DNA from: Neisseria subflava
GTDB taxonomy: Bacteria; Pseudomonadota; Gammaproteobacteria; Burkholderiales; Neisseriaceae
DNA: 64,000 bases
Direction of reading: 5' to 3'
NCBI RefSeq assembly: GCF_003044935.1
Contig: NZ_POXP01000002.1
Span: forward strand, 310,001 to 374,000
This document shows, in pieces, positions 14,202 through 20,215 of this stretch. The stretch's first letter is position 1, and the number at the start of each line of letters is the position of its first letter. Under the pieces are notes generated by a model. It was not told the origin of the DNA and ran no database searches. It saw only the letters and a program-made list of their open reading frames with translations. A program made the position numbers and the translations under genes.

Positions 14202-14233
14202 TAAAAAACCGCCTGTTCATGACAAACAGGCGG
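14202..14233 (-). terminator. Non-DUS hairpin after waaA, best oriented for the minus strand
   Basis: CCGCCTGTT and AACAGGCGG form the stem. Read on the minus strand it is followed by TTTTTTATT, a classic intrinsic terminator. On the + strand (waaA) the T tract is missing. It lies just beyond the mini-ORF stop at 14266. Confidence 0.6.
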
Positions 14234-14265
14234 AAACTGAAAAACAGTTTTTTGTTTTCAGCCGT

Positions 14266-14358
14266 TTAATTGACTAAGAGCAGGAACAGGGTTAAGATAA
14301 TCCTAATGACTGTTCGCAGTCTCAGCCATGAACGACCCGTGCGAGTGGTATGTTTCAT
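14266..14358 (-). CDS. Candidate mini-ORF, 30-aa basic-hydrophobic peptide
   Basis: On the minus strand, ATG at 14358 to TAA at 14266. The first half holds five Arg and one Lys. The second half (VIRIILTLFLLLV) could span a membrane. AGAAAGGA lies 11 bases before the ATG, and an intrinsic terminator follows the stop. The architecture is that of small type I toxins and leader peptides, but I do not recognise the peptide. No good minus-strand promoter was found. It lies almost wholly opposite the candidate sRNA, so it may be chance. Confidence 0.3.
   Translation of the reverse strand: MKHTTRTGRSWLRLRTVIRIILTLFLLLVN
14270..14298 (+). promoter_or_regulatory. Sigma-70 promoter for the candidate sRNA
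   Basis: TTGACT (14270-14275), exactly 17 bases, then TAAGAT (14293-14298). The predicted start is about 14305, two to three bases before a stable hairpin. Confidence 0.6.
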
Positions 14359-14420
14359 GATTGAAACCATCCTTTCTAGGGCGGTTTCAGCACAAAGCCC
14401 CACTGCAATGGGGCTTTTTT
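14305..14420 (+). ncRNA. Candidate trans-acting small RNA, about 115 nt
   Basis: It has a full set of sRNA parts. A promoter lies at 14270-14298. The 5' hairpin GACTG-TTCG-CAGTC (14308-14321) has a stable tetraloop. The central region has two alternative stems: GTTTCA-TGAT-TGAAAC (14352-14367), or TGAAACC (14362-14368) with GGTTTCA (14383-14389). The second shows ATCCTTTCTAGGGC in its loop. CCTTTCT is complementary to AGAAAGG ribosome binding sites. The 3' end is a strong terminator (AAAGCCCC/GGGGCTTTTTT). I cannot match it to a named Neisseria sRNA. Confidence 0.6.
14394..14420 (+). terminator. Intrinsic terminator of the candidate sRNA
   Basis: AAAGCCCC-ACTGCAAT-GGGGCTTTTTT: an 8-bp GC-rich stem and six T, with no DUS in it. 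Confidence 0.8.
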
Positions 14421-14483
14421 GCTACCAGCCCCGCGATAATTACACCCAAACTTCCTAAAATCATTCCAAACAAATTTCCACTA

Positions 14484-20033: not shown

Positions 20034-20107
20034 GCGTTTTTGACAGAAAATATCCAAACGTTGCTTTACAAAAAACCATCCGCATGGTTTAATTTTTCGT
20101 TAATAAA

Positions 20108-20192
20108 GAAACAGGGGTGCTGCTTTCAAACCGAGCGGCTGAGAAATACCCTTTACACCCGAACAGGATAATACCTGCGTGGGGAGTTTCGG
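20108..20192 (+). promoter_or_regulatory. TPP riboswitch aptamer (THI element)
   Basis: Conserved blocks are GGGGTGC, GGCTGAGAAATACCC, ACCCGAACAGGATAATACC and TGCGTGGGGAG. P1 is formed by GAAAC (20108-20112) and GTTTC (20186-20190). It binds thiamine pyrophosphate and controls thiC, which starts about 105 bases downstream. Confidence 0.95.
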
Positions 20193-20215
20193 CAAATGTG
20201 ATTTTAGATGGTTGA

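Follow-up and report, generated by a model that had tools for sequence, protein, structure and literature searches.

Introduction

The described systems closest in layout to the locus reported here are the AapA/IsoA and Ibs/Sib type I toxin–antitoxin systems. In AapA/IsoA of Helicobacter pylori, according to the parts of the published account drawn on here (PMC6733600), a 30-residue peptide is encoded at several loci per genome, the antisense RNA stands opposite the leader, the Shine–Dalgarno sequence and the start, and the antisense −10 element falls inside the reading frame. The Ibs/Sib systems of E. coli likewise have several copies, a tiny peptide and a cis-antisense RNA that covers the ribosome binding site (PMC4147584, sections used). 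Among the small RNAs of Neisseria, the siblings NmsRA/NmsRB (NgncR_162/163) have UC-rich anti-Shine–Dalgarno motifs, through which they act, and several stem-loops, as far as the excerpts of PMC5362039 and PMC9973317 go. The Neisseria parts of one review, in the portion available, name type II toxin–antitoxin systems only, and in the main texts of the openly available papers searched we found no type I system described in this genus.

We analysed a window of 64,000 nucleotides from Neisseria subflava (contig NZ_POXP01000002.1), in which a preliminary description had placed a candidate undescribed small RNA, possibly of the Hfq type and acting in trans. The small RNA with its promoter and structure is supported by comparison with relatives; the trans-acting role is not. 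Its entire stretch lies opposite a 30-codon frame of the other strand and is, by coordinates, complementary to a predicted peptide mRNA from the leader hairpin through the Shine–Dalgarno sequence and start codon to codon 18. The mRNA of AapA/IsoA is 225 nt long, against about 230 nt here, whereas IsoA3 has 80 nt and the Neisseria antisense RNA about 116 nt, and H. pylori belongs to a different bacterial group (PMC6733600, same parts). This likeness is one of layout alone, drawn without sequence comparison, and no curated family matched the Neisseria peptides. With Ibs/Sib, too, the likeness is by layout and not by peptide sequence, and Sib spans the whole ibs coding region, whereas the Neisseria antisense RNA covers about the first 18 of 30 codons (PMC4147584, sections used). 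The NmsR/NgncR RNAs differ in both locus and sequence.

The pair is probably a type I toxin–antitoxin-like module in which the RNA of the preliminary description would be the cis-antisense antitoxin. From the minus strand would come the mRNA, short and folded, of a 30-residue peptide that is basic and hydrophobic; from the plus strand would come the antisense RNA, whose promoter lies within the 3′ portion of the peptide gene. By pairing with the mRNA leader, Shine–Dalgarno sequence and start, the antisense RNA would block translation and perhaps lead to decay by RNase III; should it disappear, synthesis of the peptide would follow, with an effect on the membrane.

Layout of the locus and the peptide gene

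The features of the locus are listed in Table 1. The promoter, the GACTG-TTCG-CAGTC hairpin, the TGAAACC/GGTTTCA stem with ATCCTTTCTAGGGC and the terminator with six T are all present in the sequence as first described; a simple terminator scan gave no entry for the last of these. On the minus strand, two invariant stretches correspond to the Shine–Dalgarno sequence and to the start ATGAAAC; the 30-codon frame that opens there is found again in relatives. The peptide gene of the window has a −10 element, a Shine–Dalgarno sequence and a terminator of its own; among the copies, the sense −10 was recognised by simple patterns in a part only. An earlier in-frame ATG overlaps the Shine–Dalgarno sequence and would give an alternative peptide of 34 residues. 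Our count of 30 frames with a Shine–Dalgarno sequence is too low, because for some copies, including that of the window, the start rule chose a start of this kind.

Table 1. Features of the two-strand locus (positions in the window)
Feature	Position	Strand	Remarks
Antisense RNA promoter	14270..14298	+	−35 TTGACT 14270–14275, −10 TAAGAT 14293–14298, spacer 17; inside codons 21–30 and the stop of the peptide gene (its last third)
Predicted antisense RNA, about 116 nt	14305..14420	+	predicted ends; covariance model match 14305–14418
Antisense RNA terminator hairpin and T6	14394..14420	+	arms AAAGCCCC (14394–14401) and GGGGCTTT (14410–14417), running into T6 at 14415–14420; same palindrome as the leader hairpin of the peptide mRNA
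Peptide mRNA −10, TGTAAT	14439..14444	−	TATAAT in several relatives; predicted start near 14432
Predicted peptide mRNA, about 230 nt	14203..14432	−	predicted ends
Shine–Dalgarno sequence AGAAAGGA of the peptide gene	14370..14377	−	complement of the loop first described
30-codon peptide gene MKHTTRTGRSWLRLRTVIRIILTLFLLLVN and stop TAA	14266..14358	−	
Peptide mRNA terminator	14203..14233	−	stem 14233–14209, then T run

The set compared here comprises 43 copies, drawn from chromosomes of Neisseriaceae, from filamentous prophages and from small plasmids. The C-terminal end was in frame in 39 of them, which gave 36 distinct genes of 90 nt, of which 34 are free of internal stops. For codons 1–19 the dN/dS ratio was 0.378 (69 pairs), compared with a mean of 0.90 in column shuffles, none of 200 being as low. 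The other five frames gave 0.96, 1.13, 0.93, 1.53 and 0.44, and the last of these, a low ratio in one antisense frame, counts against the coding argument. By this codon measure the peptide frame is under purifying selection, and the gene is almost certainly real. The predicted peptide is basic and hydrophobic and would be of membrane type, its hydrophobic C-terminal half being read from the sequence. Type I systems have a short hydrophobic peptide gene coding for under 60 amino acids, and a gene of 30 codons agrees with this. For six of the peptides, Pfam gave no family at its cut-off (two weak matches, E 0.01 and 0.024) and NCBIfam no family at all; PHROGs gave weak matches only (best E 0.046) and the PDB none.

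The peptide mRNA is predicted to be strongly folded. At full length the mean unpaired probability of the Shine–Dalgarno sequence was 0.32, and in five shortened forms it was 0.64, 0.65, 0.51, 0.34 and 0.62. In eight VN-type genes, codons 3–7 were the most variable of 76 blocks (diversity 0.438 versus 0.093 in codons 8–30); these codons stand opposite the loop of the second hairpin of the antisense RNA.

Two further observations concern the 5′ end. In the window, the mRNA start GGGGCU (14427–14432) repeats an arm of the leader hairpin (14396–14401 with 14410–14415), giving GGGGCU-AGCCCC-GGGGCU, in place of which the prophage copies have GGGGAU-AUCCCC-GGGGAU; the matched change suggests an alternative 5′ pairing of the peptide mRNA. 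Prophage-type copies (L103–L106, L108–L110, L118, L120–L122) also have, upstream of the leader hairpin, minimal start–stop frames (ATGATTTGA, ATGACTTAG, ATGACATAG) that consist of ATG, a single codon and a stop behind a strong Shine–Dalgarno sequence.

Copies, mobility and decay

BLAST with 14262–14430 found relatives in 13 of 46 genus genomes, at more than one place in three of them (G008, G016, G045); this sample takes in records named Neisseria iguanae, N. weixii and Bergeriella denitrificans. A covariance model at E ≤ 0.01 matched 13 of the 46 genus genomes and 15 of 83 family genomes, a few weakly, and a 16-peptide profile added copies that had escaped the searches with DNA and RNA. A first search of the family at E ≤ 1 gave matches in 55 of the 83 genomes, mostly weak and partial. 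With a 23-peptide profile, 22 of the 83 matched at E ≤ 0.02, one of them (G062) inside a 762-aa frame and probably false. The set of 43 includes three identical copies from one genome (G021). Left out of it were this G062 match, the second locus of G043 (L011, with a shifted frame and promoter-like sequence kept), L012 with a masked stretch, the remnant L018 and the weaker matches of the first search.

Nothing convincing was found outside Neisseriaceae in an order-level profile search of 399 genomes; 20 matched at E ≤ 0.05, and the 15 outside the family were short and weak (E 0.006–0.05) and were taken as chance. Matches on Burkholderia and Azospirillum plasmids (E 0.3–0.8) were set aside, as the stop and the conserved motifs were missing. 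Phage records and viral contigs gave no match; one of these searches used a single peptide, and another gave 200 pattern stretches, none of which was confirmed.

The distribution of the cassette is patchy. In one near relative (G014), waaA is 99% identical to that of the window and the cassette is absent, leaving an empty site; the missing length is about 258 bp, counted by eye. A Zot-family gene lay beside the copy in all four loci tested and an IS110 transposase in all three tested, as in the layout of Neisseria filamentous prophages. Copies were also present on five plasmid records, namely meningococcal pJS-B, two records like it, and pNL3.2 and pNL18.2 of N. lactamica; the part of PMC9779448 used takes pJS-B to be a filamentous prophage in circular form. 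At one locus (L133, in G037) a small IS-type transposase-like sequence is situated between waaA and the cassette, and at another (L102, on contig C67 of G033) three copies of the peptide gene stand in tandem within about 850 bp.

It was found that the frame is open in 36 of the 43 copies and the antisense promoter present in 41, with both in 35. Six copies have the promoter only, one the frame only (with an altered end and a 25-nt spacer) and one neither. A frame counted as open if it coded for 28–38 amino acids, by which rule L102_3335 and L102_4078, with a shifted stop, were scored as not open. G025 carries a copy that is nearly identical apart from a TGA at codon 11, and all three copies of G008 are damaged; both findings speak against a toxin–antitoxin-like module, as does the patchy distribution. 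The same coding and promoter conservation, and the carriage on prophages and plasmids, would also suit a small membrane peptide that is not toxic but regulates, or that serves a filamentous phage, for example in superinfection exclusion, with its level set by the cis-antisense RNA. We consider this unlikely, since promoter-only copies outnumber frame-only copies six to one, as would be expected of a frame that does harm when unguarded, a comparison that is based on small numbers of related copies and depends partly on the length rule.

The predicted antisense RNA and its promoter

The fold of the 117-nt RNA had an energy of −43.1 kcal/mol (z −3.47), which was equalled by 1 of 200 shuffles. Conservation of the stem and loop in relatives had been set beforehand as a test of the small RNA, and both TCCTTT and TTCAT proved invariant across 14 aligned copies. 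The named structure was paired in 90.8% of cells, and in a comparison with 500 shuffles it exceeded all of them on four of five measures and was reached by one on the fifth. Covariation, also proposed as a check, was seen as double-sided changes at seven pairs; the shuffles averaged 1.8, and none of the 500 reached seven. Together with the conserved promoter, this pairing supports a small RNA as first described. In Rfam no family reached its gathering threshold at this place; RF02590 came closest, with 32.6 bits (E 1.4e-5) where the threshold is 208, and was not taken as kinship. Elsewhere in the window there is a TPP riboswitch at 20103–20202 (72 bits).

The complementarity of the loop to a Shine–Dalgarno sequence is real, and the predicted target is that of the gene opposite, in cis; the loop matches a Shine–Dalgarno sequence because it is the complement of this one. 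It had been suggested instead that the RNA is of the Hfq type and that its loop targets other mRNAs in trans. The structure and loop are indeed conserved, and the NmsR siblings of Neisseria use such motifs (PMC5362039, PMC9973317, excerpts), but the conserved loop and TTCAT are together the complement of the Shine–Dalgarno sequence and start codon, and when the genome of the window was searched for the 13-base loop complement with 0–1 mismatch allowed, the cis site was the only one. Sites with two mismatches numbered nine, compared with seven for the reversed control pattern. Action in trans is thus not needed to explain the loop, and we regard it as very improbable as the main function, although the RNA may have a second role in trans. 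The related idea of an ortholog of a named small RNA was also not upheld in the case of the NmsR/NgncR pair. The lrp-side locus and the TCC/CTTG pattern of that pair are not found at 14305..14420; the same genome has, next to an AsnC-family gene (L021, about 1135–1400, contig C1), a tandem pair carrying TTTCTCCTCTATTTCTCCTTTGTAGACTTGG that fits, by eye, the published TCC32-34 / TCC43-45 / CTTG54-57 spacing of NmsR/NgncR_162-163.

As for the promoter, three promoter-like sites were found in 1 kb on both strands, compared with 0.7 ± 0.9 in shuffles, so that chance alone could still give a single site. A TTGAC-N17-19-TANNAT element is present in 41 of the 43, and this promoter and the overlap with the predicted mRNA by coordinates point to a cis-antisense RNA, itself predicted. 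The codon of Leu22 is TTA or CTA in 34 of 34 distinct genes, compared with 41 of 196 leucines elsewhere (Fisher p 5e-20, a value overstated because the copies are related and the test ignores it). Ser29 is AGT in 24 of 24 cases versus 3 of 29 elsewhere, and Gln30 is CAA in 26 of 26 versus 9 of 16. In addition, GTCAA is kept in both SQ-stop and VN-stop genes, which differ in frame by one base, with a spacer of 17 or 18. Coding has no need of these frozen codons or of GTCAA across a frame change, which argues that the antisense promoter is kept for itself. It is very probable that the antisense RNA is made.

The terminator palindrome is roughly symmetrical, with 5.1 versus 4.8 U per window on the two strands (39 leaders, a crude count, as the hairpin finder chose a wrong hairpin in a few rows), and the consensus folding energies barely differ (−22.25 versus −19.49); neither helps to tell the strands apart. 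The same bases serve both strands, and so the peptide gene alone might be real and the plus-strand promoter a by-product of its codons, the least credible of the alternatives in view of codons 22, 29 and 30, fixed to promoter-like DNA, and of GTCAA. A possible regulator palindrome over the −10, TTAAGATnATCTTAA, was rejected; it occurs at two places in the genome of the window (one exact, one with one mismatch) and is lost in distant copies, and was therefore taken as a by-product of the codons.

Discussion

The reading as a type I toxin–antitoxin-like module is supported by the conservation of the coding frame, the Shine–Dalgarno sequence and the antisense promoter, by several copies per genome, by copies on mobile elements and by the presence and absence of the cassette; both transcripts, the repression and the toxicity are what we infer. 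More tentatively, and at somewhat less than even confidence, the copies may make up a new, mobile family of type I modules in Neisseriaceae. Filamentous phages (including meningococcal pJS-B) and small plasmids would be its carriers, and it would have become established in chromosomes on repeated occasions. In such a family the hypervariable stretch of the peptide gene would double as a pairing loop, so that each antitoxin is specific to its own copy, and the module would serve the maintenance of filamentous phages or competition between them.

If the toxin–antitoxin-like reading is true, it would add an unannotated family of 30-codon genes and a candidate maintenance or competition module for the filamentous phages and small plasmids of Neisseria. 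It would also mean that the anti-Shine–Dalgarno loop of a candidate small RNA can be the opposite strand of a very small gene, and that what was plausibly called a small RNA is here apparently one half of a conserved two-strand module.
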